NCBI GenBank assembly: GCA_902796855.1
Contig: CADBQN010000014.1
Span: 1 to 33,560, forward strand
Direction of reading: 5' to 3'
DNA length: 33,560 nt
DNA from: an uncultured Bacillota bacterium
Lineage (GTDB): Bacteria > Bacillota > Dehalobacteriia > UBA7702
Of this stretch, positions 12,617-28,690 are shown piece by piece. Below the pieces are notes generated by a model, which was not told the DNA's origin, ran no database searches, and saw only the letters and a program-made list of their open reading frames with translations. How positions within the stretch are numbered: position 1 is the first letter of the stretch; every line of letters starts with the position of its first letter. A program made the translations under genes and the position numbers.

Positions 12617-15283
12617 TCACGACGCGCCGCGCTTCTTCCGTTTCACCATCGCCGTGATTTCCTCCACCTTAAGGAGGAAACAGCCGGCAACAAAGAGAAC
12701 CATGGCCGCGGCGCCGATGAAGAGCCCCTTCGCTGCCAGCATCAGCTTGCCGTCGCCATCGAGGATCAGCAGATCCCGCAGGAACCACGATGCGGCGCCG
12801 ATGACGAGGGAGAGAAGAAACGACTTCACAATGGGCTCAAAGCGGAGGATCCCCCGCCCTTCTCTGCCGCGGAAGACGACAGCGATGGTGATGACGGCGC
12901 CGACGGTCATCGCCGCGGCGGTACTCAGCGCCAGCAGAGAACTGTTCAGCGCGAAAATATGGTCGAGAACGGCGTTGAAGGCGATGACAAAAAGGCTGAT
13001 TAAAAACGGCGCCAGCAGTTTATTCATCGTAAAGAACGCCTTGTTCAGCAGGTCGATCACGCTGAAACCGGCCATGCCCACGGCGTACATCATAAAGATG
13101 GCCGTCGTCGCCGCGGTGGATTCCGCCGTGAAATTGCCGCTTTCAAAGAGCACCTTCACCATGGGGCCGCCGAGGACGATGAGAATGGCGGAAACGGGGA
13201 AAACGGCAATGAGCGTCCGGGACGTAATGGTCCAGACATAGCCGAGGTATTCCCGGTGATCCGTCTTCAGGTAGTGACGGTTGAGTTTGGGAAAGAGCAC
13301 AACGCTGATGCTGTAGATAAAAGTCGTCGTCAGCGGCGTGAAGATCTTGTCGGCGTAGTAAAAGGCCGTCGTGACGCCGGGGCCGATGCCCTCGGCGGCG
13401 GAAGCGTCGATGAGGTAGCAAAAGAGATACGCCGACGTCGTCACGATGGTGACGATGACTGTTTTCAGGAAGAACCGCAGGTAATCGGCGCGGAGATCGA
13501 GGCGGACGCGATAGAGGTAACGCTCTTTTAAGGCGTAGGGAACCGTCATCGCGAACTGGAGCAGCCAGGCGACGGAAACGGCGGCCACGTAGATCAAAAT
13601 CGCCTCACGCTCGGCGAAAAAGATCAGAAAAAGGATGAGGAACACCGAATAAGGCAGGCTCATGCTGCCCTGCAGGGTGAAGTAATCCATCGACTGAAAA
13701 ACGGCGACGAGGAGATAGGTCACGACGATGACCGGCAGCGTCAGCGCCATGAGCCGCATAAACGAGAGCATCGCCGGATCCCCGGCGGGCCAGAGCCAGC
13801 CGGCGAAGGGATTCACGGTCAAAAGCTCCCAGATGGCGAGACAAATAAAGCTCAGCAGCAGGCCGAAGGTAATGACGTTATTCGCGACGCTTTCGCCCTC
13901 TTCGCGCCCTTTCGTCATGGCCTTGGTGATGATGGGCACGGCGGCGACGCACATGGCGTAGGCGATGGTCGTAAAGAGGTAGATTGTCTTGTTATACGAG
14001 GCGTAAAAGGCGTCGACGGCGCCGAAGACATTGGCCTGGAGGGATTCCCGCAGGATCCCCAAAAGCTTCGCGGCGACGGTGACCAGCATCACTCCGCCGA
14101 TGGCCGTGAGGACGCCGCCTTTTTTTCGGGTCTTCGCCGGCGGCGCTTCCGTCGTCAGCGGCGGTTCGCTTTGGGCGGGAGCGGTGTTTTCCTCAATGAC
14201 GTGTTTGATCTTTTTATCGTACGTTTCCAGCCGGGCTTTCAGCTTTTTCACTTCCGCTCCGGTGGACGCGGTGATTTCCTCGCCATGGGCAACGGTTTCG
14301 GCAAAGACTTCCTCAAATCTCCCGGCGGTAAAGGTCTCCGTATCGGCGGCGCACCGCTGCCCGACGGAAGCCATGAAGGCGTCGACCTTGGGGTCGTAAG
14401 AAACGCCGATCATCGGCACGCCCATGATGGCGGCGAAAATCAGCGAATGGAGACGCACGCCGACGAGGCAGTCGAGATTGCCGATGATGGACAGCATCTC
14501 GTCGCTGAGATACTTCTCGGTGATGCAGAAAACCCCCTCGCCGAGGCGGTCACGGAGCGCTTCGGCGACGGCGGCGTCCTGTTCGTAGTGAAAGGGGATC
14601 AGCACCGAATCAACGCGGTGGGTCTCGCTGAGCCAGCGGATGGAAGCGGCGACCTCATCGAGGAACTTCTCGTCGCCGTCGGCGGCTTTGATGGCCCAGC
14701 CGACGATCAGACGGTCCTCCCTCTTTTTCAGGCCGAGGCTTTCCAAAATGGCCCGGCCCTTCTCAGGGCCGGCTTTGCGCATGCCCATCACCGGGTCGGC
14801 GGTGACGAACACTTTTTCCGACGGGACGCCGATTTCCCGGAGCAGCGCGGCGGACTCGTCGTCGCGGACGGCGATTTCCTCCACCCCCCGCAGAGTGCCG
14901 GCGGTCAGAAGGCGGTTCCATTTGCCGCGGATCGGGCCGATGCCCTGGGAATAGAGCAGCACCTTCTTTTTGAAAAACCGGGCGGTGCGGATAATGAACA
15001 GATAGTAGAGCAGGCTCGCGGTGGAGGTGGCGTCCTGGAGAAGGCTGCCGCCGCCGAATACGAGCATATCACAGCCGCGGATGGCCCGGACGATCTTGGA
15101 GATCTTCATCCGCTCCACGGCGTGGACGCCGTATTTCTCCGCGGTGTCGGCGGGATTCTGGGAAAGGACCGTTAAATCGACGTCCCCCAGCTCCGACCGG
15201 AGATTATCGATGACGGTGCGCAGGATTGACTCGTCGCCGATGTTATTGAATCCATAATATCCGGAGATCAGGATCTTATACAT
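12617..15283 (-). CDS. CsaB polysaccharide pyruvyl transferase fused to MurJ flippase
   Basis: An 888-aa two-enzyme polypeptide. Residues 1-363 are a complete CsaB-type pyruvyl transferase: GYYGFNNIGDE (8-18), FGGGSLLQD (76-84), VRDDES (139-144), RLHS (277-280) and YDPK (296-299). CsaB adds ketal pyruvate to secondary cell-wall polysaccharide, the anchor for S-layer-homology proteins. A basic/Pro linker (about 364-388) leads to residues 389-885, a MurJ/MviN-type multi-spanning flippase (start VMLVTVAAKLLGILRES) expected to move lipid-linked wall precursors. The frame is continuous with no sign of a sequencing join. The start at ATG 15283 has AGAGGA upstream, 36 nt after the DUF5693 gene. It ends an operon. 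Whether the flippase half handles lipid II or a lipid-linked polysaccharide is unknown. Confidence 0.9.
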   Translation of the reverse strand: MYKILISGYYGFNNIGDESILRTVIDNLRSELGDVDLTVLSQNPADTAEKYGVHAVERMKISKIVRAIRGCDMLVFGGGSLLQDATSTASLLYYLFIIRTARFFKKKVLLYSQGIGPIRGKWNRLLTAGTLRGVEEIAVRDDESAALLREIGVPSEKVFVTADPVMGMRKAGPEKGRAILESLGLKKREDRLIVGWAIKAADGDEKFLDEVAASIRWLSETHRVDSVLIPFHYEQDAAVAEALRDRLGEGVFCITEKYLSDEMLSIIGNLDCLVGVRLHSLIFAAIMGVPMIGVSYDPKVDAFMASVGQRCAADTETFTAGRFEEVFAETVAHGEEITASTGAEVKKLKARLETYDKKIKHVIEENTAPAQSEPPLTTEAPPAKTRKKGGVLTAIGGVMLVTVAAKLLGILRESLQANVFGAVDAFYASYNKTIYLFTTIAYAMCVAAVPIITKAMTKGREEGESVANNVITFGLLLSFICLAIWELLTVNPFAGWLWPAGDPAMLSFMRLMALTLPVIVVTYLLVAVFQSMDYFTLQGSMSLPYSVFLILFLIFFAEREAILIYVAAVSVAWLLQFAMTVPYALKERYLYRVRLDLRADYLRFFLKTVIVTIVTTSAYLFCYLIDASAAEGIGPGVTTAFYYADKIFTPLTTTFIYSISVVLFPKLNRHYLKTDHREYLGYVWTITSRTLIAVFPVSAILIVLGGPMVKVLFESGNFTAESTAATTAIFMMYAVGMAGFSVIDLLNKAFFTMNKLLAPFLISLFVIAFNAVLDHIFALNSSLLALSTAAAMTVGAVITIAVVFRGREGRGILRFEPIVKSFLLSLVIGAASWFLRDLLILDGDGKLMLAAKGLFIGAAAMVLFVAGCFLLKVEEITAMVKRKKRGAS

Positions 15284-15319: not shown

Positions 15320-17473
15320 TCATCTCGACAGAACGCCGGTCCTGCGGACGGCGCGGTAAATCAGCTCCGCGGCGCAGACGGCGGCGGCGGCGAAGACGAG
15401 ACCGATGCCGAGACCGATGAGCACCCGGCAGAGGCTCAGGGCCACACCGGTGCGGATGTGCAGGAACGTGTTGACAATGCTGGTCAGACCGATGACCATC
15501 CCGGCGCCAAAGACCACAGGCAGGCCGGGAACGCGGCGGCGGAGAGCCCAGACGAACAGGGCCATGCAGGGATAGCCGATGAGGAATTCTTTTGTCCGGG
15601 GACGGGCAATGAACGTTTCCTCCATCCAGTTGCGGGTGGTGATTTCCAGCGTGGGAACCATATCCTGAGTGATGTTGCCGGTGCGGATGATGTAGTAGAC
15701 GCCGAGGAGGGCGATGAAACAGACCACCGCGCCGCCGAGGATCATGTGATAAACGCCGCGGCGGCGGACCGACGTATCGAGATAACCGTTCCAGGCGGCT
15801 TTTCTTTCGCCGCGGCTCAGCGACGCGCCGCCGTATACACAGCGTTCAAAGAAGAAAATCTGCAAATAGCTGACGATGAAAACGACGAGGGGCAGCAGCT
15901 GCATCACTTTGACGCCGCGATAGAGCCGCATTTCCAGAATATAGGCCGAATCCGACAGCGACGACGCCACAAAGAGGGAGCCGCAGAAGGCCACGGCGAA
16001 GAGAACGAGGAGGACAGCGAGGATCTCGCCCAAAAGGCGGCCGAAAGACGGCTCTTTCGCCTCTGTCTCCCGCATATACCGATTCAGTCCCGTCGCCGCC
16101 AGGCATGGCATCAGCGCGCCGCCGGCGATGGACAGCAGGATCCGCGAGGTATTGGGCATCACGAAGAGCGCGGCGGCGACACAGAGGAAACCCAGCGCCG
16201 TCAAAATCACCATCGTCTTCCGTTTCAGCTGTCCGAACCGCGTCAGCAGCAGCACCGCCGCGGCGGTTTCGCCGACGCCGAGGAGGAAACAGAGGAGGGC
16301 CGAGGGATGATTGGGACGCAGCGGCTCAACAGTGCCGAAAGAATAGCCGTATTTCGCCATGCGGTCCTCCAGCCCCGTCACCAGCGCGCCGTAGGCTTTG
16401 GGATCGGTCACGTAAACCGAGGGGGAGCCGTCGTCCTTCGTTTTTTCGTCGTTGATGATCGCCTTTAAAAAGATGACGTCACAGTTGCGCTCATAAATGG
16501 CGCGGTAAAGGGAATTGATGATTTCTTCCGGCCCCTCATAGTCGTAGGCCTGATAGCGCCGCATGACAAAATCCCAGGCGTTGAAAACGCGGACGGCGTT
16601 ATAATCCACGCTCTGGACAAAGGCTTGGAACCCGGGCCACTGAATATTCCCCTGTTCCGTCGAGGTCTCGGTAACGGCCACGGCGCCGCCGGTCGCTTTC
16701 AGATATTTCGCCAGCGGTTTCGCCCAGTTGTCATCGTCGGCGCCGACGACGCCGTCGCCGCTGTTCATAAAGTACGGCGACTGATAGGGCGCGAAGGTCT
16801 TAAAGACGTCGGCGGCGAATTTGGCGCCGTTGACGCCGTCTCTCGTCTTTGTCCGGGGGATGACCTGACAGCCGCTTTCCTCGATGACGCGGACCTGTTC
16901 GGGCCAGAGCCCCAGGCTGAATTCGGCCCACTGTTCGCCGGTCATGCCGTTTTCACAGCCGTAGATCCAGAGATAGCCGGTATCGCCGTCGGTGACGGTG
17001 CGATAGTGAATCGCTTCCGCCCGGCGGTCGAGGGCGTCGGTGATCCATTGAAACTCCGCCGGTTCCCCGCAGACCACCAGCAGGTCGCTGCGGTATTCCG
17101 ACTGTTCCACCAGGGAGACGACGTCCGCGGGGAAACGGTCGCGCCAATCGGCCTCGGCGGTGAGATCCTCGGTGAAATAGCGCCAGATCTCTTCTTTCGG
17201 GTTGGAGGCCAGAGCCTCAATGTTCGTCTCAAAGAGCGCCACCTTGGTCACGCCCCGTTTTGACAGATAACCGAGCCATTCGGAAATATTGTGCTCCGAC
17301 TGGTAGGACATCTGAGAAAAATCGCTGAAATCCACAACGATATCGTAATTTTTGCTCTCCGCCTCGACGCTCCAGCGGTGACCGGCGATGAAAACGGCGG
17401 TCACCAAACCAACGGCGAGAAGGATCCATAATACTGCTTCAAATCGTTTCGGTTTTTTCGTCATTCTTTTCAC
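15320..17473 (-). CDS. DUF5693 family polytopic membrane protein
   Basis: A 717-aa membrane protein of the DUF5693 family, which in Bacillota often neighbours csaB; its biochemical role is not established. One N-terminal helix (about 13-30) is followed by a large extracytoplasmic domain to about residue 385 (with VVDFSDFSQMSYQSE, a repeated VALFETNIEALA-type region and VYVTDPKAYGALVTGLEDRM) and then about ten hydrophobic helices to the C-terminus. The GTG at 17473 overlaps the upstream gene's stop as GTGA and has AAAGGG 8 nt before it; ATG 17464 is an alternative. Coupling to the surface-protein gene before and CsaB-MurJ after points to a role in exporting or assembling wall polysaccharide. 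Confidence 0.82.
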   Translation of the reverse strand: MKRMTKKPKRFEAVLWILLAVGLVTAVFIAGHRWSVEAESKNYDIVVDFSDFSQMSYQSEHNISEWLGYLSKRGVTKVALFETNIEALASNPKEEIWRYFTEDLTAEADWRDRFPADVVSLVEQSEYRSDLLVVCGEPAEFQWITDALDRRAEAIHYRTVTDGDTGYLWIYGCENGMTGEQWAEFSLGLWPEQVRVIEESGCQVIPRTKTRDGVNGAKFAADVFKTFAPYQSPYFMNSGDGVVGADDDNWAKPLAKYLKATGGAVAVTETSTEQGNIQWPGFQAFVQSVDYNAVRVFNAWDFVMRRYQAYDYEGPEEIINSLYRAIYERNCDVIFLKAIINDEKTKDDGSPSVYVTDPKAYGALVTGLEDRMAKYGYSFGTVEPLRPNHPSALLCFLLGVGETAAAVLLLTRFGQLKRKTMVILTALGFLCVAAALFVMPNTSRILLSIAGGALMPCLAATGLNRYMRETEAKEPSFGRLLGEILAVLLVLFAVAFCGSLFVASSLSDSAYILEMRLYRGVKVMQLLPLVVFIVSYLQIFFFERCVYGGASLSRGERKAAWNGYLDTSVRRRGVYHMILGGAVVCFIALLGVYYIIRTGNITQDMVPTLEITTRNWMEETFIARPRTKEFLIGYPCMALFVWALRRRVPGLPVVFGAGMVIGLTSIVNTFLHIRTGVALSLCRVLIGLGIGLVFAAAAVCAAELIYRAVRRTGVLSR

Positions 17474-20049
17474 CCGTTTTCCCTTTGCTGTCCTGTTCGT
17501 TCGTTTTCAGCCGTTTCCGTTTCGGCGGCCGGCGGCGCGGCCTCTCTGCGCCACGGCGGCATAAAGCTCTCATCGTTCCGTCTGACTTTCGTCGGTGCCG
17601 TCGGTGCCATCGGTGCCATCGGTTCCGTTATCTCCGCCGCGTCCGTCGGTTCCTCCGCCGCTGTTTCCGCCGGAAGTTCCGGCTCCGGCTCATCATCGTC
17701 GGGCAAAAGGAGGTCTTCCTCGGCTTCACCGCCGGTCAGGCGGTCTTTTGGCGTCAGGCCGCCGCTCCGTCGATAGAGGACAGCGCCGGCCGAAGCCAAA
17801 AGCAGCACCGCCTCGACAATGAGACCGAAGAGGATGAACCCGGTATTGGTACGATCGGCGAAGAGCGTGTCCGCGCCGGTATATTCGGCGATGAAGTAAT
17901 CGGAGCAGTGCTCAATTTCAAAGGAGAAGCGCCCCTGCTCCACGTCGATGGGGCAGGTGTACGCCGCGGAATGCGTTTCCGGGTCAAAGAGGAACAGCCC
18001 CCGCTCGACGCTGTCATCGAGGTTGGCGTAAAAGGAGACGGAAGCCTTGCCGGGAAGGGCGCCCTCCTGTTCAAAATGAAGAATCAGCGGGCTTTCCGCC
18101 ATGGTGGAAATATCGTCCCAATGGTCGGTCTCCTCGGTGATCCGCATATCAAAATCCATCGGCGTCTCAATCCCGTCCGCCGGGAAGAGGATCTCATAGC
18201 GGACACCGCGGTCGGTCCGGCCGTTTAAAATGACGTCGGTATCGTCGGCGGCGGCTTCCTCAAAGACCAAGGCGGGAACAAGACCGTTCACCGTTTCGTC
18301 GAGGGAGACGTTTTTCGTCGGCGCTTTCGCCGTTTCCGCCGAGAGGAAGTAATCGCCGCCCTCGGCCAGGGTGAACACGGCGACGCCGTTGGTCACCGAC
18401 AGATCGGTGATGAGTGCCGCTTCGTCGGCATTGGGATCGTAGCGATAGAGATGATACGTCCCGTCGGCCAGCGCCACGGTCACCATGGCCTCGGCCCTGC
18501 CGGGGAAGGCGTCCCGATGCTCAAAAGAAATGACTTCACCGTCGGAGACCATGGCGGAAATCTTTTCGGGATAGGCGCTCTCGCCGCTGATGACGGCGTT
18601 GAAATCCATCGGGGAGGTAATGTCGGTCCCGGTGAAGGAGATCGTATAGCGTTCGCCGTCGTTCCAGGTCCCCTCATAGACAAAAACGTCGTTCTTGCCC
18701 CGGATCCCCTCAAAGACCGACTGCGCCACCGTCGTTCCCTGGGCGGCGTTCTGGGTCGTCGTCACACCGGCGGCGCCGGCGTTGGCGGCGACGCTGCCCG
18801 CGGCGGCGGTATTCCCGCCGGAAGTGCTGCCGGAGCCGCTCCGGTTCGCGGTACTGCCGCCGGAAGAGCGGGTGTTGGCGGAACGGTTGGCCGCGGATGA
18901 GGATGAGGATGATGATGAGGAGGAAGAGGAATTCTTCGCTTTTGACGAACTCTGAGCGGAGGAAGACTTCCCGGCGCTGCCGCTGTCCTTTTTCGCCGCG
19001 GCGGGCAGAGAGACGACGGCGGGAGCGTGATGCTTCACCCCGGAGAAATCATAGAACACGTCGCCGTTCTGGAAAACGGCATAGGCCACCAGCGCGACCC
19101 GGGCCACGGAAGTCGTCGCCGAAGAGGACGCGCCCCCGGCGGCGGAGCCGAAACCGCCGTCGCTGTTTTGGAACCGCAGCAGCCCGGCGTAGGCGTCACC
19201 ATGAAGAAACGTGTTGTCGGCGGGGTCCAGCCCGACGGCGCAGAGTCCCGTCACCACCGCCGCCGTGGCGGCGCAGCTGTTCTGGAACGCGCCGGAGCCG
19301 TTCTGCACGGCGGCGAGTTTTGTCAGCAGGGCGGACACGGCTTTCACCGCGCCGGGTTCCCCGGCTTTGTAATAGGGCGCCAGGGCGGACAGAACGAGAC
19401 CGGCGGTATGAACGTCGGGGGATGCCTGACCGCTCAGCGTCTCCGCGGACTCACAGAGCGCGGCTTTCAGATCCTGCCGCGTCACCGAGGAACCGGCGGC
19501 GCGGGCCGCGGCGTCGCTGACGCCGTTGGCGTCGAGGGCCAGCAGAGCGTAGGCCACGGTGCGGGTCCCCTCTTTTTTCAGCGAGGCGAGACTGCGGGAA
19601 TAAAGCCCCTTATAGAGCAGGTCGACCCGGTTGCGGTTGTCATCAACGCCGACGGAGGAGGGATCCTTCCCGGCGGCGCCGCAGGCCAGAGCCGCCCGGA
19701 GGAAGTCCGACACGGTATAGGAGGCGTTGCCGCTCTTCAAACGGGCGTTGACGTAACCGAGATATTTGCTGAAATCCTCGTCGCTGACGGCGGTCTGCGC
19801 CGTATCCCGTCCGGCGGCCATGATCAACAGGTCGTACCGTTCCGTTATGGCCTGGGAGAGCTTCTCGTCGGTCATCACGGCGCTGCCGCCGCCTTTTTCG
19901 TATTCATAGGTCTGATTGATATCGCTCCGCGGCGACGCGCTGACGCCGGCGGCGAACGCCGAAAAACAAAGGGCGGCGGCACAGACGGCGGCGGCGAAGC
20001 GGCGGAAAGACCTTTTTTCAGTTCCTGATCTCTGTTTTCTCATTTTCAT
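17470..20049 (-). CDS. Large Ser-rich surface protein with terpenoid-cyclase-like repeats and membrane anchor
   Basis: An 859-aa predicted surface protein. A signal peptide (1-38) precedes alpha-helical repeats of the prenyltransferase/squalene-oxidase type (about 45-335; note AVQNGSGAFQN and LLRFQNSDGGFGS), a Ser/Gly/Asn linker with 12 consecutive Ser (374-385), two tandem homologous beta-rich domains (about 455-570 and 604-720), one membrane helix (about 737-758), and an acidic Pro/Glu cytoplasmic tail. The two domains share TSPMDF/ETPMDF, ISFEHRDAFPG/LHFEQEGALPG and GGDYFLS/CSDYFIA at matching places, so one arose by duplication. No enzymatic acid motif of true cyclases was seen; the repeat domain may bind ligand. 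The start at ATG 20049 has AAGGA upstream. Couples by GTGA overlap to DUF5693. Confidence 0.8.
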   Translation of the reverse strand: MKMRKQRSGTEKRSFRRFAAAVCAAALCFSAFAAGVSASPRSDINQTYEYEKGGGSAVMTDEKLSQAITERYDLLIMAAGRDTAQTAVSDEDFSKYLGYVNARLKSGNASYTVSDFLRAALACGAAGKDPSSVGVDDNRNRVDLLYKGLYSRSLASLKKEGTRTVAYALLALDANGVSDAAARAAGSSVTRQDLKAALCESAETLSGQASPDVHTAGLVLSALAPYYKAGEPGAVKAVSALLTKLAAVQNGSGAFQNSCAATAAVVTGLCAVGLDPADNTFLHGDAYAGLLRFQNSDGGFGSAAGGASSSATTSVARVALVAYAVFQNGDVFYDFSGVKHHAPAVVSLPAAAKKDSGSAGKSSSAQSSSKAKNSSSSSSSSSSSSAANRSANTRSSGGSTANRSGSGSTSGGNTAAAGSVAANAGAAGVTTTQNAAQGTTVAQSVFEGIRGKNDVFVYEGTWNDGERYTISFTGTDITSPMDFNAVISGESAYPEKISAMVSDGEVISFEHRDAFPGRAEAMVTVALADGTYHLYRYDPNADEAALITDLSVTNGVAVFTLAEGGDYFLSAETAKAPTKNVSLDETVNGLVPALVFEEAAADDTDVILNGRTDRGVRYEILFPADGIETPMDFDMRITEETDHWDDISTMAESPLILHFEQEGALPGKASVSFYANLDDSVERGLFLFDPETHSAAYTCPIDVEQGRFSFEIEHCSDYFIAEYTGADTLFADRTNTGFILFGLIVEAVLLLASAGAVLYRRSGGLTPKDRLTGGEAEEDLLLPDDDEPEPELPAETAAEEPTDAAEITEPMAPMAPTAPTKVRRNDESFMPPWRREAAPPAAETETAENERTGQQRENG
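18895..18930 (-). repeat. Poly-serine tract (12 consecutive Ser codons)
   Basis: A TCN-type trinucleotide run encodes Ser374-385 of the surface protein, within a longer low-complexity linker. Such a tract can change length by whole codons without shifting frame. Confidence 0.8.
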
Positions 20050-20123: not shown

Positions 20124-20477
20124 TTAAGCGGAAGTGGAGGCGATCATATCCACGCCGGTGCCGCAGATATCGGCGACAATGACGCTGCCCGCGGCGACAG
20201 GCGCCGTGACGACAACGCCTTTCAGCACTTCCATACAGTGAAAGACCGCGTCTTTCGGCAGGGGTTCCCGGGAGCGCACCGGCAGCGGCGCGCCGTTGGA
20301 CACCCGCACCGTCGTCGTCAGCATACGGGTCGGATGCACGCATTCCATTTTGGCGTATTCCTCGCCGCGGCGGCAGAGGTTGCCCTCCACTTTCGTGACG
20401 GCGCCGTCGGTGAGCTCCACCGTCAGCAGGCAGCCCATCGGACAGCGGATGCAGGTGATTTGTCTCGTTTCTTTCAT
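20124..20477 (-). CDS. DUF1667 Cys-rich protein
   Basis: A 117-aa cytoplasmic protein of the DUF1667 family. The N-terminus TCIRCPMGC (Cys9, Cys12, Cys16), Cys35 in NLCRRGEEYA and Cys46 in MECVHPTRML form a likely iron-sulfur or metal site resembling the N-terminal cluster motifs of molybdopterin oxidoreductases. It starts at ATG 20477, overlapping the upstream oxidoreductase stop as ATGA. DUF1667 genes commonly follow a GlpA-like dehydrogenase and an FAD/NAD oxidoreductase, exactly as here, suggesting the third subunit or electron-transfer partner of that complex. The next gene starts 74 bases later with no terminator or promoter that I can support in between. Confidence 0.88.
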   Translation of the reverse strand: MKETRQITCIRCPMGCLLTVELTDGAVTKVEGNLCRRGEEYAKMECVHPTRMLTTTVRVSNGAPLPVRSREPLPKDAVFHCMEVLKGVVVTAPVAAGSVIVADICGTGVDMIASTSA

Positions 20478-21742
20478 GATTTCAGCCCCACTTCAATCGT
20501 GATATCGCCGTGAACACGGCGGAGTTCTTCTTCTTTCAGCACAATGGACTCCATTTCACCGGGGGTGACAATGCGCCGGTTCCGCACCCGCAGGAGCTCG
20601 CCGCCGGAGGAAACGGAGATCATCGCGCCGCGGCAGACCTGATCGGGGCGGAAGAAGAGACGCAGTTCCTCACCGCCGCCGGAGATCCGCTGGGGGACGA
20701 CGTAACGAACGCCGTTCCCGGCCCGGGCGGCCACGGTCTGCCGCCGGGGGAGTTCCCCCTTGAGATAGAGGGCGGCGGATTCCCCGGCGATCTCCGCTTC
20801 TTCCGAAACGTAATCGACGAGGTCGTGGACGTGGAGGACGTTGCCGCAGGAAAAGATCCCGCCGACGGAGGTCTCCCGATGCTCATCGACGACGGCGCCG
20901 CCGGTGACGGGGTCCAGCTCCACGCCGGCGGCGCGGGCCAGTTCGTTTTCGGGGATGAGCCCCACGGAAAGGAGCAACGTGTCACAGTCGATGAATTCCT
21001 TTGTTTCCTCGATGGGACGGAGGTTTTCGTCCACCCGGGCGATGGTGACGCCGGTGAGACGGTTCTCGCCGTGGATCTCCGTGACGGTATGGCTCAGCAA
21101 AAGGGGGATATCAAAATCTTCCAGACATTGGACGATGTTCCGTTTCAGGCCACCGGAATAGGGCATCAGCTCCAAAACGGCTTTGACTTCGGCGCCTTCC
21201 AGCCGCATCCGCCGGGCCATGATGAGGCCGATATCGCCGCTGCCGAGGACGACGACGCGTTTTCCCGGCATATAGCCTTTGAGATTGACAAAGAGCTGGG
21301 CCGTGCCGGCGGTGTAGACCCCGGCGGGACGGGTGCCGGGGATGCGCACCGCGCCGCGGCTGCGCTCGCGGCAGCCCATGGCCAGAATGACGGCGCCGGC
21401 CTTGATCCGCGTGAGGCCGTGTTCCTCGCTGACGCAGGTCACGACGTGATCGGCGCTGATATCCGTCACCATCGTATCGCACCGATAGGGGATCCCCAGC
21501 TCCCTGACGCGGTCGATGTAGCGGTCGGCGTATTCAGGACCGGTCAGTTCCTCGTTGAACTTGTGGACGCCGAACCCGCTGTGGACGCACTGGCGGAGGA
21601 TGCCGCCGAGACGGGGGCCGCGTTCCAAAATCAATAGATCCTCGATCCCCTGTTCCCTGCAGCGGATCGCCGCGGCGAGACCGGCCGGGCCGCCGCCGAC
21701 GACAACGAGAGACACATGGATCGTTCTGTTTTCTCTTTTCAT
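20474..21742 (-). CDS. FAD-dependent pyridine nucleotide-disulfide oxidoreductase-like protein
   Basis: A 422-aa flavoprotein with an N-terminal FAD-binding fold (VVVGGGPAGLAAAIRC), a single Cys in the LRQCVHSGFG segment, and a second Rossmann motif VVLGSGDIGLIMARRM for NAD(P)H. Late in the chain FSCGNVLHVHDLVDYV contacts FAD. It belongs to the group encoded beside GlpA-like dehydrogenases and DUF1667 and probably passes electrons between that dehydrogenase and NAD or another carrier. ATG 21742 is chosen because AAGGAG lies nine bases upstream; the frame extends three codons to a TTG. It is 13 nt after the GlpA-like gene and overlaps DUF1667 by 4 bases. Confidence 0.87.
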   Translation of the reverse strand: MKRENRTIHVSLVVVGGGPAGLAAAIRCREQGIEDLLILERGPRLGGILRQCVHSGFGVHKFNEELTGPEYADRYIDRVRELGIPYRCDTMVTDISADHVVTCVSEEHGLTRIKAGAVILAMGCRERSRGAVRIPGTRPAGVYTAGTAQLFVNLKGYMPGKRVVVLGSGDIGLIMARRMRLEGAEVKAVLELMPYSGGLKRNIVQCLEDFDIPLLLSHTVTEIHGENRLTGVTIARVDENLRPIEETKEFIDCDTLLLSVGLIPENELARAAGVELDPVTGGAVVDEHRETSVGGIFSCGNVLHVHDLVDYVSEEAEIAGESAALYLKGELPRRQTVAARAGNGVRYVVPQRISGGGEELRLFFRPDQVCRGAMISVSSGGELLRVRNRRIVTPGEMESIVLKEEELRRVHGDITIEVGLKS

Positions 21743-21755
21743 ATCGTCCAACTCC

Positions 21756-23189
21756 TTACTTCACCGGGCCGCTGAGGATTTCCGAACCGGGCCCGCGCTT
21801 TGTCACCTGATCCATCGGGATCCCCAGCTCGGCGCTGAGGAGCTCCGTGACAAGAGGCAGGCAGAAACCGCCCTGACAGCGCCCCATGCCGGCACGGACG
21901 CGGCGCTTTACGCCGTCGGTGTCGGCGGCGGGGGGATTGCGGCGGATGGCGTCGCGGATCTCCCCTTCGCTGATCTCCTCACAGCGGCAGACGATCCTGC
22001 CGTAGGCCGGGTCGTGGGCGATGAGGGAGTAACGCTCGTCCTCTCCCATTTTGCCGGGACAGGGGATCGGCGCGCGGTAAGGGTTGAACTCGCGCCGCTT
22101 GTGGGTCAGTACGCCCATCCCCTGAAGCATCGCTTCGACATAGGCGGCGATGGCGGGGGATGAGGCCAGCCCCGGCGATTCGATGGCGGCCGCGTGAATG
22201 AGGCGGGGATGAGTCGGCGACTGGGTGATGATGAAATCGCCGGTGCTGCCGACGGCCCTGAGGCCGGTAAAAGCGGTGATCACACCGTTGAGCGGCAGAC
22301 CGGGGACGCTCTTTGCGGCGGCCAGGGTCATCTTTTCCAGCCCCGCCGCCGTCGTCTTTTTATCCTCTTTATCGTCGATATCCTCGGCGGTGGGGCCGAT
22401 CAGCAGATTGCCGTGGGCCGTCGGCGTCACGAGCACGCCTTTGCCCATGGCCGTCGGCGCCTGGAACACCGTCTGCCGCACCACGTTGCCGATCGACCGG
22501 TCAAAGAGGTAATATTCCCCGCGCCGCGGCCGGATGGTGAAAAAGCCGTCGCCGACCATGGCGGCGACGCGGTCCGCGTAGAGACCGGCGGCGTTGATGA
22601 CGAAAGCGGCCTCGACCGTTTCGCCGGGGGAGGAAATCTCAAAGGACGCTCCCCGATCCGCCAGGGACATCACGGGGAAATTCCGTTTCAGCTCCACGCC
22701 GTTGTCCATGGCGTTGCCCATGGCGGCGATCGTCAGCGAATAAGGGCAGACGATGCCGGCGTCCGGGGCGTACAGCGCGCCGACGGCGGCGGGAGAGAGA
22801 TGGGGTTCCAGGGAGAAGAGCTGTTCCCGACCGAGAACATAGAGATGTTCCACGCCGTTGAGCCGGCCTCTGGCATACAGTTCCTGCACGGCGGCCATCT
22901 CCTCGTCGCAGAAGGCGACGACGAGGGAGCCGTTCTGACGATAGGGAACGCCCAGTTCCGAGGCGACTTTCGGCATCATGGCGCAGCCGGCGACGTTGAG
23001 CCGGGCCTTGAGCGTGCCCGGGCGGGCGTCGTAACCGGCGTGGACGATGCCGCTGTTCGCCTTGGAACTGCCCATGGCGACATCGTTTTCTTTTTCCAGA
23101 ACGACGACGGAGAGGTTGTATTTCGCCAATTCCCTGGCGATCATCGAGCCGGTCACGCCGGCGCCGATGACGGCAATATCATAGCGCAT
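21756..23189 (-). CDS. GlpA/LhgO-like FAD dehydrogenase with BFD-like [2Fe-2S] domain
   Basis: A 477-aa flavoprotein of the DAO superfamily. It has the FAD-binding start YDIAVIGAGVTGSMIARELA, the family motif SSKANSGIVHAGYDARPG, and a C-terminal bacterioferritin-associated-ferredoxin-like domain with CRCEE and later CQGGFC, four Cys for a [2Fe-2S] cluster. Glycerol-3-phosphate and L-2-hydroxyglutarate are the known substrates of close families; the three-gene context with the NAD/FAD oxidoreductase and DUF1667 favours an anaerobic glycerol-3-phosphate-type dehydrogenase. No glpK or glpF is nearby. It is the first gene of its unit, behind a strong promoter with a perfect palindrome at 23243-23265. 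Confidence 0.87.
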   Translation of the reverse strand: MRYDIAVIGAGVTGSMIARELAKYNLSVVVLEKENDVAMGSSKANSGIVHAGYDARPGTLKARLNVAGCAMMPKVASELGVPYRQNGSLVVAFCDEEMAAVQELYARGRLNGVEHLYVLGREQLFSLEPHLSPAAVGALYAPDAGIVCPYSLTIAAMGNAMDNGVELKRNFPVMSLADRGASFEISSPGETVEAAFVINAAGLYADRVAAMVGDGFFTIRPRRGEYYLFDRSIGNVVRQTVFQAPTAMGKGVLVTPTAHGNLLIGPTAEDIDDKEDKKTTAAGLEKMTLAAAKSVPGLPLNGVITAFTGLRAVGSTGDFIITQSPTHPRLIHAAAIESPGLASSPAIAAYVEAMLQGMGVLTHKRREFNPYRAPIPCPGKMGEDERYSLIAHDPAYGRIVCRCEEISEGEIRDAIRRNPPAADTDGVKRRVRAGMGRCQGGFCLPLVTELLSAELGIPMDQVTKRGPGSEILSGPVK

Positions 23190-24329: not shown

Positions 24330-25349
24330 TCAATCGTCGGACATATCAAGGATCCCCAACTTCAGCGCGCCGGCAAAGATCAGCATCACCGCCATCAGCG
24401 AAGCCAGAATACTGTAGGCCGTCGGCAGCAGTGAGATCAGCACGGCGATGGTGCCGAAGAGGAACGTCACGGCGTAAATGAACAGCACCGTGTCCCTGTG
24501 GCTGAGCCCCTTTTTCAGCAGGCGGTGGTGGAAATGGCCCTTATCGGCCTGAAAGATTGGTTTGCCGCTGCGATGGCGGCGCACGATGGCGAAGAGCGTG
24601 TCGAGGATCGGCAGCCCCAGAATGAGGATGGGAACGGAAAGGCCGATCAGCGTCGCCCCTTCGGAAACGCTCATCAGCGAATAGACCGCCAGGAGAAAGC
24701 CGAGGAACAGCGAACCGCAGTCCCCCATAAAGAGCTTCGCCGGGTGGAAATTGGATTTCAGGAACCCGAAGATGCTGCCGACGAGGATGATGCAGAGCGC
24801 CGTAACGCTGTTGAGGCCGCTGGAATAGGCCACCACGCCGATGCTCATCGCCGCGATGCCGGAAACGCCGGCGGCGAGGCCGTCGAGGCCGTCGATGAGG
24901 TTCACGGCGTTGCAGACGCCGACAACCCAGAGCAGGCTTAAAGGATAGCCCCAAATGCCCACGTCGATGATGGAATCGGTAAAGGGAATGGTCAGAAATT
25001 CCAGGTGGACGCCGAAAATCAGCAGAATCGCGGCGGCGATGATCTGACCGAGGAGTTTTAATTTCGGGGAAATATCGCGGATGTCGTCGTAGAGGCCCAC
25101 CACCGTGATGAAACTGGCGCTGAGGAGCAGGCCGAGAAAAGGCCTGGTAAAATTACCGTAAACCAAAAAGCCGCAGAGAAAACCGGCGTATATGCCGATG
25201 CCGCCCATTCGGGTCATCAGCCCCTTATGGACTTTCCGGCTGTCGGGTTCATCGTAGACCCCCAGCCTCATGGCGAGTTTTTTCGTTTGCGGCGTCACCA
25301 GCAGCGCCACGGCGACGGCGACGATAAACGCGAGAATGACTTTCAGCAT
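24330..25349 (-). CDS. TagO/WecA-type undecaprenyl-phosphate HexNAc-1-phosphate transferase
   Basis: Polytopic inner-membrane enzyme that transfers HexNAc-1-phosphate from a UDP-sugar to undecaprenyl phosphate, starting a wall teichoic acid or secondary wall polysaccharide. The 339-aa protein has about ten membrane helices, DSRKVHKGLMTRMGG, the metal-binding LYDDIRD, NLIDGLDGLAAG, the LFMGDCGS catalytic loop, and the terminal HFHHRLL motif. ATG 25349 is preferred because GGGAGG sits four bases upstream; a TTG lies four codons earlier. It sits between murJ and the SH3 gene. Together with CsaB it would supply the polymer that is then pyruvylated. Confidence 0.92.
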   Translation of the reverse strand: MLKVILAFIVAVAVALLVTPQTKKLAMRLGVYDEPDSRKVHKGLMTRMGGIGIYAGFLCGFLVYGNFTRPFLGLLLSASFITVVGLYDDIRDISPKLKLLGQIIAAAILLIFGVHLEFLTIPFTDSIIDVGIWGYPLSLLWVVGVCNAVNLIDGLDGLAAGVSGIAAMSIGVVAYSSGLNSVTALCIILVGSIFGFLKSNFHPAKLFMGDCGSLFLGFLLAVYSLMSVSEGATLIGLSVPILILGLPILDTLFAIVRRHRSGKPIFQADKGHFHHRLLKKGLSHRDTVLFIYAVTFLFGTIAVLISLLPTAYSILASLMAVMLIFAGALKLGILDMSDD

Positions 25350-25380: not shown

Positions 25381-26946
25381 TTATCCCTTCGCGGAGCGAG
25401 CGAACCTGTTTTTGACCATTTCCCAGAGCCAGGCGCCCTCCCGGATCCTCAGCGCGGCGGCGAGGAGGAGATAGACGGCGACGGCGACGGTGATGGCGAC
25501 ACAGAGCAGCGCCAGATCGCCCCATCCCGAACACAGCGCCCGCGTCAGCGCCACGGCGATCCCCATCACGGCGGAAGCAAAAAAGATCTTGCCGCAGGAG
25601 ATCAGCAGCGGACGAAAGGCCATGTCCGGCAGGTGTTTTCTGACGTAGAGGAAAAAGATCAGCATATTGGCGGCGCTGGCCAGCGTTGTCGCCAGGGCGA
25701 GGCCGTTGTGACCCATGCCGCCGATGGTCAGCAGGCTCACCGCGATGTTGACGGCGATGCCGCCGATCCCGGCGATGACGGGGACTTTCACGTCGGAGAA
25801 AGCGAAGAAAACGCGGAGCAGCAGCATGACCAGGGAATGGGCGATGATGCCGCCGGCGTAAAAGAGCAGCGCCGAGGAGGTCATCAGCGTATCGTCGGCG
25901 GTGAAAGCGCCGTGCTCAAAGAGCAGGCGCACAATGGGCACGCGGAGGATCATCAGACCCACCGCCGCGGGCACCGCCAGCAACAGGATGACGCCGACGC
26001 CCCGTTCCAGCGCCTCCCGGCAGCGAACGAGGTCGCCGCGGATGGCGTATTCCGACAGCAGCGGATAGATGGCCACGGCGATGGCGGAAACGAAGATTCC
26101 CGAGGGGAGCTGGGCCAGTCTCGCGCCGTAATTCAGCGAGGAGATGCTGCCCTCCGCCAGCCCCGAGGCGAAAAAGCGGTTCAAAATATAGTAGACCTGA
26201 TTCACCGACATCCCCAGAATGATGGGGACGAGGGAGACCAGCGCCGCGCGGATCTCATCGTTATGACGGGAAACGCGGAAGCGGTAGCGCCAGCCCGCCG
26301 CGAAGGACGACGGCAGCTGAATCAGGAAAAAGCCGATGAAAGAAACGAGGGTACCGGCGGCCAGGCCCCAGATCCCCAGCGAATCACCGGTGAGCAGGAC
26401 GAAAAGAATGATGATGATGCTGGAAAAAGCGGGGGCGAAAGCGGCGATGGTAAAGCGGCGGTTGGCGTTGAGGATCCCCGTCAGCGTCATGCCGAGGCAG
26501 AAAAAGATGACCGTGGGGAACATCAGCCGCGTCAGCCGCACAGCCAAAAGCGCCGTCGACGCGGCGAGATTCGGCGCCGTGATCCGGACGAGGAGCGGCG
26601 CGGCGGCGACGCCGATGAGGGCCACGGCGGCCATCAGCAGCGCCGAACTGTTGAGAAAGCTGTTGGCGGCGAGATTCGCCTCTCCCCGGTTGTCGTCGAC
26701 GATGTACTTCGTCAGCAGCGGCACCGTCACGAAAACGATGGCGTTGCCGATGACCTGCTGAACCGAGTAAGGCAGCGTATAGGCGACGACATAGGCGTCG
26801 GTATACATCGTCGCGCCGAAGGCCCGGGCGATGACGATTTCACGGACGAAGCCCAAAAGCTTCGTCACGATATTCATCAGCAGAATGATCACCGCGGCGG
26901 CGGTGACGTTCCGTTTTAAGTTTTCCGACGGCTTCTGAGAAGTCAC
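25381..26946 (-). CDS. murJ: MurJ lipid II flippase, stand-alone copy
   Basis: A 521-aa multi-spanning membrane protein of the MurJ/MviN family (MOP superfamily) that flips lipid-linked peptidoglycan precursor. Features are the N-terminal LLMNIVTKLLGFVREIVIARAFGA, FPTVIFFCLGMTLTGILNANRRF, and about 14 helices to the end. It begins at a GTG (26946) with AAGGAA upstream, only 4 nt after the CsaB-like gene, and is followed by tagO. It is the closer match to canonical MurJ; the second copy in this window is fused to CsaB. Its order with the CsaB-like gene is the same as in the fusion. Confidence 0.92.
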   Translation of the reverse strand: MTSQKPSENLKRNVTAAAVIILLMNIVTKLLGFVREIVIARAFGATMYTDAYVVAYTLPYSVQQVIGNAIVFVTVPLLTKYIVDDNRGEANLAANSFLNSSALLMAAVALIGVAAAPLLVRITAPNLAASTALLAVRLTRLMFPTVIFFCLGMTLTGILNANRRFTIAAFAPAFSSIIIILFVLLTGDSLGIWGLAAGTLVSFIGFFLIQLPSSFAAGWRYRFRVSRHNDEIRAALVSLVPIILGMSVNQVYYILNRFFASGLAEGSISSLNYGARLAQLPSGIFVSAIAVAIYPLLSEYAIRGDLVRCREALERGVGVILLLAVPAAVGLMILRVPIVRLLFEHGAFTADDTLMTSSALLFYAGGIIAHSLVMLLLRVFFAFSDVKVPVIAGIGGIAVNIAVSLLTIGGMGHNGLALATTLASAANMLIFFLYVRKHLPDMAFRPLLISCGKIFFASAVMGIAVALTRALCSGWGDLALLCVAITVAVAVYLLLAAALRIREGAWLWEMVKNRFARSAKG

Positions 26947-26950
26947 GGGA

Positions 26951-28690
26951 TTATTCTTCCTTCCCCTCGGAAAGCGTTTCTTCGCTGTCGGCGGTCTCGG
27001 CGGCAGCGTCTTCGGGTTCGGTCACAGCGCCGTCTTCGGCGGCGGCTTCGATGGCCGCGGCGGTTTCCTCCGCCTCGGCGGCTTCACCGTTGTAAAGGGT
27101 GCCGCCGGCGTCGTTGCCGTCGACGCGGTCGGCCTTCCCCTCTTTGGAGAAGAAGCCCTTGATCGTGTCGATGATCTTCGTAAAATCAAAATGAGCGGAG
27201 GAAGCGGCGCCGGCGGAGGCGCTCCGCTGCGACTTTCCGGAACGGGCGTTGGCCCGGCGAATCTGGGCGAAAATCAGCTCCAGCTGTTCGTCGGTATACG
27301 ACGCCTTTTCCCTGAGGTCGTCAAAGTTTTCCTCAATGGAGGCGACGATGGCGGCGGGGTCGTTGACGGCGGCCTTGAAATTGCGGATGAACGCTTCGCT
27401 GTCGTAATCGAGGAGGTTCCCCGTGGGCGTCAGCCCCAGGGCGGAAATGAAGGCGATGTCCCGGCGGGTGCAGCAGAGGGAAGCCAGGGGCTTCCGGCAG
27501 ATCGCCGCGAGGATCATCGGGCAGAGATCCGAGGAGAAGACGAAATCGACGGTGTCGATGGCGGTGCAGAGAGACCGCGGCGTCAGTTTGCCGTCGACCT
27601 CGTAACCTTCGTTCTTCATCATTTTAAGGATCTCTTTGCCGAGACGGGCGTCGTCGGGATAGTTCACCGGAATGAAAACGACGTGATAGCCGTTGTCGAT
27701 CATATAATCGGCCATGGCCGTGATCTGCGAGACCGGCAGATCCGTTTTGGGGGAGAAGAGGAAAGCGGCGAATTTCTCACCGGGCTTTTTCCAGACCGGC
27801 GGCGCCACGACGCCGAGGTCGTGGGGACGGGTCGGCGTTTTCCGCGCCGGTTTCGCGGCGGGTTTTTCCTCCGTTTGGGCCGGCGGTTCCACCATGGCGA
27901 TCTCACCGGTGGAAGCGAGTTCCACCGTATCTGTCGTGGGAGCCGCGCCTTCGGGAACGACACGGATCTCAATTTCCACTTCTTTGCCTTCGTAGTCAAT
28001 CGGTTCCGCCGCGGCGGGAGACGTTTCCACCTCGATGGTGATCTTTTCGTTCTCGATGGCCTCAAGATCTCTTTCCGCCAGTTCCGCCGGAGTCGGTTTT
28101 GCGGCGGGTTCTTCCGCGGCGGGCTCTTCCGCGGCGGGTTCCAGCAGGTTCGTCTGGATCAGCCGCCATTCCTTTTCCACATCACCGAGGGCCAGCAAGG
28201 GATCGACGGCGAGATGAATGCGGCCGCGGCGGATGCCCATGCCGTGGAGCACCTCGACGCTGTTCTGATCGGCGACGGAGATCTTCCGCACCTTTTTCAT
28301 CACCCGGCCGACCATGGCTTTGGCCCGGGCGCCCTCATAGGCGGGAATGACCTGATTGAAGATGTAGACTTCCGTCTTACCGCGGAGGGCGGCGCTGATC
28401 ACTTTCAGGTAATATTTCAGCTCGGAGAGATCCGCCGTTTCCTTCAGCAGCTCGCCGCCGCCGCTGATCAGCAGATCCGCCGATTTTACTTCCCGTTTGA
28501 CGCGGTCCCATTGATCGCTCTTTACGGCGGTGACGTCAAAATCCTCTTCGGTCTGTTCCGGATCGGCGGAAAAGACGACGATCTCCATGGTTTCATCCAA
28601 ACGGCGCAGGATATCGATGAGGCTCAGCAGCATCAGTTCCTTATCGGCGCTACCGTGACCGTAATACCCGGAAATACATACCTTTGCCAT
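26951..28690 (-). CDS. Degenerate CsaB-like pyruvyl transferase homologue with inserted low-complexity segment
   Basis: A 579-aa protein with the CsaB fold but altered active-site motifs. The start (MAKVCISGYYGHGSADKE) and ISGGGELL (75-82) are retained. VRDDES of CsaB is VADQNS at the same residues (139-144), and the RLHS and YDPK motifs are replaced by SDLCP and CCTRRD. A Pro/Ala/Glu-rich insert of about 115 residues (184-300) splits the fold, and an acidic Ala/Glu tail (about 485-579) is added. It is probably inactive as a pyruvyl transferase and may act as a scaffold or regulator. The start at ATG 28690 follows GAAGGA. It heads the operon with murJ, tagO and the SH3 gene. Confidence 0.78.
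   Translation of the reverse strand: MAKVCISGYYGHGSADKELMLLSLIDILRRLDETMEIVVFSADPEQTEEDFDVTAVKSDQWDRVKREVKSADLLISGGGELLKETADLSELKYYLKVISAALRGKTEVYIFNQVIPAYEGARAKAMVGRVMKKVRKISVADQNSVEVLHGMGIRRGRIHLAVDPLLALGDVEKEWRLIQTNLLEPAAEEPAAEEPAAKPTPAELAERDLEAIENEKITIEVETSPAAAEPIDYEGKEVEIEIRVVPEGAAPTTDTVELASTGEIAMVEPPAQTEEKPAAKPARKTPTRPHDLGVVAPPVWKKPGEKFAAFLFSPKTDLPVSQITAMADYMIDNGYHVVFIPVNYPDDARLGKEILKMMKNEGYEVDGKLTPRSLCTAIDTVDFVFSSDLCPMILAAICRKPLASLCCTRRDIAFISALGLTPTGNLLDYDSEAFIRNFKAAVNDPAAIVASIEENFDDLREKASYTDEQLELIFAQIRRANARSGKSQRSASAGAASSAHFDFTKIIDTIKGFFSKEGKADRVDGNDAGGTLYNGEAAEAEETAAAIEAAAEDGAVTEPEDAAAETADSEETLSEGKEE
28101..28142 (-). repeat. 15-bp tandem repeat encoding EPAAE units
   Basis: Two 15-bp units, differing at one base, and a 12-bp partial unit lie in tandem within the insert of the CsaB-like gene. 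They encode repeated Glu-Glu-Pro-Ala-Ala. Copy number could vary in whole-codon steps. Confidence 0.75.

Follow-up and report, generated by a model that had tools for sequence, protein, structure and literature searches.

A rare, conserved fusion of a putative CsaB ketalpyruvyltransferase with a MurJ-family protein in an uncultured Bacillota bacterium

We analysed a stretch of 33,560 nucleotides from an uncultured Bacillota bacterium (contig CADBQN010000014.1), hereafter the window. It contains a single gene whose product combines a CsaB-type and a MurJ-type domain, accompanied by further genes of likely wall-polymer synthesis:

12617 to 15283, minus strand: CsaB::MurJ fusion gene, 888 amino acids, PF04230 and PF03023 in a single frame
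14189 to 15283, minus strand: CsaB half, residues 1-365 (TIGR03609, 283 bits, and alignment)
14114 to 14185, minus strand: linker, residues 367-390, predicted disordered (pLDDT <50), rich in Pro, Thr and Glu
12620 to 14113, minus strand: MurJ-fold half, residues 391-888, about 14 membrane helices (PF03023, Foldseek)
15320 to 17473, minus strand: DUF5693 membrane protein, next gene upstream, 36 nt from the fusion (PF18949, 413 bits)
17470 to 20049, minus strand: predicted secreted protein, 859 amino acids, overlapping DUF5693 by 4 nt (synteny)
24330 to 25349, minus strand: TagO/WecA-type sugar-1-phosphate transferase (PF00953, 145 bits)
25381 to 26946, minus strand: MurJw, a second, unfused MurJ-family protein (TIGR01695, 340 bits; tree)
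26951 to 28690, minus strand: pseudo-CsaB with catalytic residues lost and a long acidic insert (alignment, motif positions)

The fusion gene begins with an ATG at 15283, downstream of an AGAGGA-like ribosome site, and ends at 12617. Pfam places a polysaccharide pyruvyl transferase domain (PF04230) at residues 14-298 (149 bits) and PF03023 at residues 422-828 (148 bits) of the 888-residue product, which carries the CsaB motifs GYYGF (8-12), GGGS (77-80), VRDDES (139-144), RLHS (277-280) and YDPK (296-299). These positions confirm the claim of an earlier, sequence-only reading that one 888-residue frame, here on the minus strand, contains all CsaB motifs followed by a MurJ membrane domain. The 25-residue linker of that reading was right as well: the AlphaFold model consists of two confident domains (mean pLDDT 86.5) with a disordered stretch of about 24 residues, 367-390, between them. 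Both the sequence and the length of the linker differ between fused homologues. An internal start yielding a free MurJ is improbable, the linker being devoid of ATG; GTG or ATG codons within the first membrane helix might conceivably act as one.

The fusion is real, rare and conserved. The same continuous fused frame was found in five other genomes (L011, L012, L013, L014 and L017), and a congener carries it in two pieces cut by contig ends (L010 and L036), with 67% identity to the window's fusion in CsaB and 72-81% in MurJ. Relative to this congener, dN/dS was about 0.11 for the CsaB half and 0.08-0.09 for the MurJ half, rough values with dS near saturation; both halves are under purifying selection. 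Although the window genome is fragmented (84 contigs), an assembly or sequencing error that joined two genes is a negligible prospect in view of the unbroken frame in five other genomes and the two-piece version in the congener. Because the fused frame recurs in independent genomes and dN/dS is low, we reject an assembly artefact, chance or a misread stop alike, and a stop or frameshift between the halves, on which the sequence-only reading would have given up its fusion, is countered by the same recurrence. In a phylum sample of 398 genomes, an unbroken match across both halves appeared only in the window genome; the fusion was present in 3 of 87 genomes of the family of L011 and in 1 of 150 of the family of L014, where there is also one contig-cut candidate (G802). 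Among the best matches, about a dozen genomes of the phylum have csaB and murJ adjoining with stops between them. The fusion-bearing genomes form a small set, mostly rumen-derived. Our literature search found no paper that describes CsaB and MurJ in one protein. The earlier statement that the two are known as separate proteins calls for some qualification, since in this small set of genomes they recur as one; the fusion did not prove to be something common and already characterised.

The CsaB half scores 283.1 bits against the TIGR03609 equivalog, above the cut-off of 213.1, and shares full-length homology with the ketalpyruvyltransferases of P. alvei and B. anthracis. In P. alvei CsaB, docking and mutagenesis have implicated R148, R306, H308 and K328 in binding PEP, Y14 and F16 in binding the acceptor, and a loop residue, R207 (PMC10435577). 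By motif and alignment, the PEP-site residues are kept in the fusion as R140, R277, H279 and K299, and other PEP- or acceptor-site residues as Y9, Y10, F12 and S80; equivalents of P. alvei Y13, Y14, F16, S88, R148, R306, H308 and K328 are all kept. The fused CsaB differs from that of P. alvei in being joined to a flippase and in having Lys (K199) at the loop-1 place of R207, as in most of its clade; the sole substitution tried at R207 was R207D (PMC10435577). Foldseek also matched stretches of about 360-370 residues to UDP-GlcNAc 2-epimerases and to glycosyltransferases of the GT-B fold, in keeping with the N-terminal half. We therefore regard the CsaB half, by homology, as a putative ketalpyruvyltransferase.

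A second CsaB in the window, starting with an ATG at 28690, is apparently a pseudoenzyme, having VAD instead of VRD, SSDLCPM instead of the RLH motif, CTRRD instead of YDPK, and an acidic, Pro/Ala-rich insert of about 100 residues. It is kept beside MurJw and TagO in G001, G002 and G003, with a dN/dS of about 0.14 against G001, and might perhaps serve as a regulator or scaffold. Since this strong match has lost its site, no clear CsaB of the genome other than the fused copy retains an intact active site; one more CsaB-type match, the third, on contig C51, is weak.

The MurJ half resembles the lipid II flippase MurJ/MviN in fold and in its roughly 14 helices. Its best Foldseek matches are E. 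coli MurJ structures (7waw, TM 0.86 by target), above WzxE and MATE transporters. In contrast to MurJ/MviN, it reaches only 190.5 bits against the TIGR01695 equivalog, below the cut-off of 235.55, bears an N-terminal enzyme and is linked to wall-polymer genes. Every tested member of the fused MurJ clade also falls below the cut-off (185-217 bits), whereas the canonical MurJ of the window genome scores 395. E. coli MurJ requires R18, R24 and R270, and R52 and D39 have also been reported essential (PMC4790310, PMC9973255). At the places of R18, R24 and R270 the fused half has Lys, Arg and Lys, which keeps the charge but departs from the three arginines expected of a lipid II flippase; D39 has its equivalent, and R52 is replaced by Phe. 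In the 21 sequences of the fused clade and related unfused proteins, R18 is Lys or Arg, R24 is Arg, D39 is Asp in 20 and R270 is Lys in all, whereas R18, R24, D39 and R270 are retained in 10 of 10 stand-alone canonical MurJs from the class.

One such canonical MurJ, with R18, R24, D39 and R270 present, is encoded on contig C79 of the window genome, and on this ground we rejected the fused half as the only lipid II flippase of that genome. All eight class genomes examined have one stand-alone canonical MurJ plus at least one CsaB-linked MurJ, a division that favours, without proving, a cargo specific to the latter and distinct from lipid II. In the tree, MurJw corresponds to the CsaB-linked MurJ found in the class. 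As both MurJw and the CsaB-linked MurJ of Formimonas exceed the TIGR01695 cut-off, the score alone does not follow CsaB linkage. In four fusion-bearing genomes (G425-G428) no PF03023 protein stronger than the fused half was found, and Amj, an alternative lipid II flippase, was absent from all 14 genomes searched; lipid II may be flipped in G425-G428 by divergent MOP proteins.

The surroundings of the fusion point to wall-polymer synthesis. In most of the retrieved loci whose flanks were long enough, DUF5693 adjoins CsaB, and the grouping of CsaB, DUF5693 and a MurJ is conserved across Clostridia-like lineages; DUF5693, for which our literature search found no paper, is a candidate for a missing step in wall-polymer synthesis. 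The 859-residue protein, which has no Pfam match, shows in its translation a stretch rich in Ser and, at the C-terminus, a membrane helix, and its homologues in G001 and G002 mark the same syntenic place. The TagO/WecA-type transferase, whose best NCBIfam match (TIGR02380) is below cut-off, is the probable start of a lipid-linked pathway. Between the two groups of wall-polymer genes, at 20124-23189 on the minus strand, translations reveal a three-gene cassette resembling FAD oxidoreductase and glycerol-3-phosphate dehydrogenase. SLH domains bind pyruvylated wall polymer (PMC6030368), and at least 96 SLH matches were counted in the window genome. Despite these matches, the TagO-like gene and CsaB, the WecG/TagA family is absent from the 98% complete genome, and the acceptor may thus differ from ManNAc-GlcNAc-PP.

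CsaB is also joined to another kind of partner. Fusions of a GT4 glycosyltransferase with CsaB, mostly of 730-1000 residues, are common in another Clostridia-like order, where they are apparently the commonest form of CsaB, and occur in family f3 and in G002 and G003 of the window's class; examples are L120 (14247-16484), L122 (3283-5523), L215 and L216, and in the variant L209 the glycosyltransferase lies at the C-terminus. Frames of 730-1000 residues in the order of G425 resembled further CsaB::MurJ fusions, but the five checked by Pfam are CsaB plus GT4. In both architectures CsaB is joined to what is likely a neighbouring step of its pathway, but the GT4 join is unrelated, its partner being a glycosyltransferase that is usually N-terminal. 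GT4 likely represents the step preceding CsaB and MurJ the one following it, and the two sorts of fusion lend Rosetta-stone support to a single pathway.

The probable source of the fusion is an operon of the Oscillospiraceae type. In Oscillospiraceae (e.g., Colidextribacter, L028) homologous genes stand in the same order, DUF5693, csaB, murJ, but encode CsaB and MurJ as two proteins. Among 11 unfused pairs whose spacing was measured (L027, L028 and L039 were left out), a murJ GTG start overlaps the csaB stop by 4 nt (at -3) in six, begins within a few nt of it in one, and lies about 40-210 nt downstream in four. Because the unfused genes adjoin and often overlap, the fused state is a short step away, and it would have arisen by joining of these two neighbours. 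The MurJ trees unite the fused halves from the window, the congener, L011, L012, L013 and L017 in one clade (100/99), which stands beside Oscillospiraceae MurJ within a larger clade; a single origin of all fusions, L014 included, has a support of only 72/0. The CsaB tree agrees (support 99), these being quick trees with long branches. The csaB-murJ pairs of the class relatives fall elsewhere, their counterpart in the window being MurJw next to the pseudo-CsaB. As both halves group with Oscillospiraceae-type genes in these quick, long-branched trees, vertical inheritance from the class's own pair is disfavoured, and the lineage of the window probably acquired the fused operon horizontally, while its own, older csaB would have decayed to a pseudoenzyme. 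At the same syntenic place, between the 859-residue gene and an APH-family gene, the congener G002 has a GT4::CsaB fusion and a separate MurJ, and G003, of the same family, has a similar pair.

Taken together, we consider it reasonably probable (about 0.68) that a membrane-tethered CsaB pyruvylates, and the MurJ half then flips, the lipid-linked repeat of a secondary wall polymer. In the proposed route, a TagO-type enzyme would put a sugar phosphate on the lipid, and a glycosyltransferase would lengthen the lipid-linked sugar. The N-terminal CsaB half would transfer pyruvate from PEP to a sugar of the undecaprenyl-diphosphate-linked repeat, and the C-terminal half would turn the pyruvylated repeat outward, to join the polymer gripped by SLH-domain proteins. 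Because the N-terminus of E. coli MurJ is cytoplasmic (PMC4790310), the CsaB half would sit in the cytoplasm with PEP and an inner-leaflet substrate. P. alvei CsaB works on a lipid-linked disaccharide (PMC6030368). Together with CsaB-MurJ adjacency, the separate canonical MurJ and the distinct fused clade, this supports action of both halves on one lipid-linked unit, and the join may speed export or restrict it to pyruvylated units. The sequence-only reading had proposed that the fusion would couple pyruvylation to flipping. The conserved neighbours and P. alvei CsaB make a shared lipid-linked unit probable; the two activities may be mechanically coupled or simply tethered.

Three other readings deserve weighing against tethered pyruvylation and export. 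The most serious, although itself unlikely, overlaps with the one we prefer: both activities would be real and belong to one pathway, but the joining would have changed nothing, with the linker replacing translational coupling. The frequent 4-nt overlap of unfused orthologues and the sporadic, rare occurrence of the fusion fit such neutrality, but the fused state has been kept across a well-supported clade of six, and dN/dS is low on either side of the junction. It is rather improbable that lipid II is the cargo of the MurJ half, whether by itself or in addition to wall polymer, pyruvylation being tied to the export of peptidoglycan precursors by position only. This account can draw on a fold closer to E. 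coli MurJ than to WzxE, on the kept R24 and D39 with charge-preserving Lys for Arg, and on G425-G428, with no stronger PF03023 protein and no Amj; it must contend with the canonical stand-alone MurJ of the window genome (R18, R24, D39 and R270), the sub-cut-off equivalog scores of the fused clade and its company of wall-polymer genes. Slimmer still is the chance that the MurJ half chiefly anchors CsaB in the membrane and docks it near lipid-linked substrates, with export left to another flippase such as the neighbouring MurJw. P. alvei CsaB is soluble and its natural acceptor lipid-linked, and MurJw does lie beside TagO in the same window; a mere anchor, however, would not require the cavity Lys, Arg and Asp positions that are kept clade-wide, and the strong purifying selection on the MurJ half (dN/dS about 0.1) and the fact that its unfused orthologues are free-standing MurJ-family proteins likewise count against this account.

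The stronger proposition, that the fused MurJ defines a branch with pyruvylated secondary-wall-polymer cargo instead of lipid II, we put forward as doubtful. The sequence-only reading had taken the fusion to imply such a cargo for the MurJ half; the separate canonical MurJ and the distinct clade are in its favour, and the four other genomes in which no PF03023 protein outscores the fused half are against it. A MurJ-family role in wall polymers is not new, given that the C. difficile MurJ homologue MviN (CD2781) is the proposed flippase of PSII (PMC5065235, PMC4973711). By description, MviN likewise belongs to the MurJ family, is encoded alongside wall-glycopolymer genes and is thus far proposed as the flippase of the polymer's unit; it differs in being unfused, and PSII anchors CWB2 and not SLH proteins. 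What appears to be new is the covalent CsaB-MurJ link. The polymerisation and export route of pyruvylated secondary wall polymers has been described as open, the B. anthracis model naming a MATE-like candidate flippase (PMC6030368). The natural joining of CsaB to a flippase suggests that a MurJ-family protein may flip the pyruvylated unit of the polymer that holds S-layer proteins, implies that pyruvylation would precede flipping, and would allow both steps to be assayed on one protein. At one further locus, L220 (3354-6571, in G347), DUF5693 has a fused-type MurJ (41%) as its neighbour, with no adjacent CsaB.
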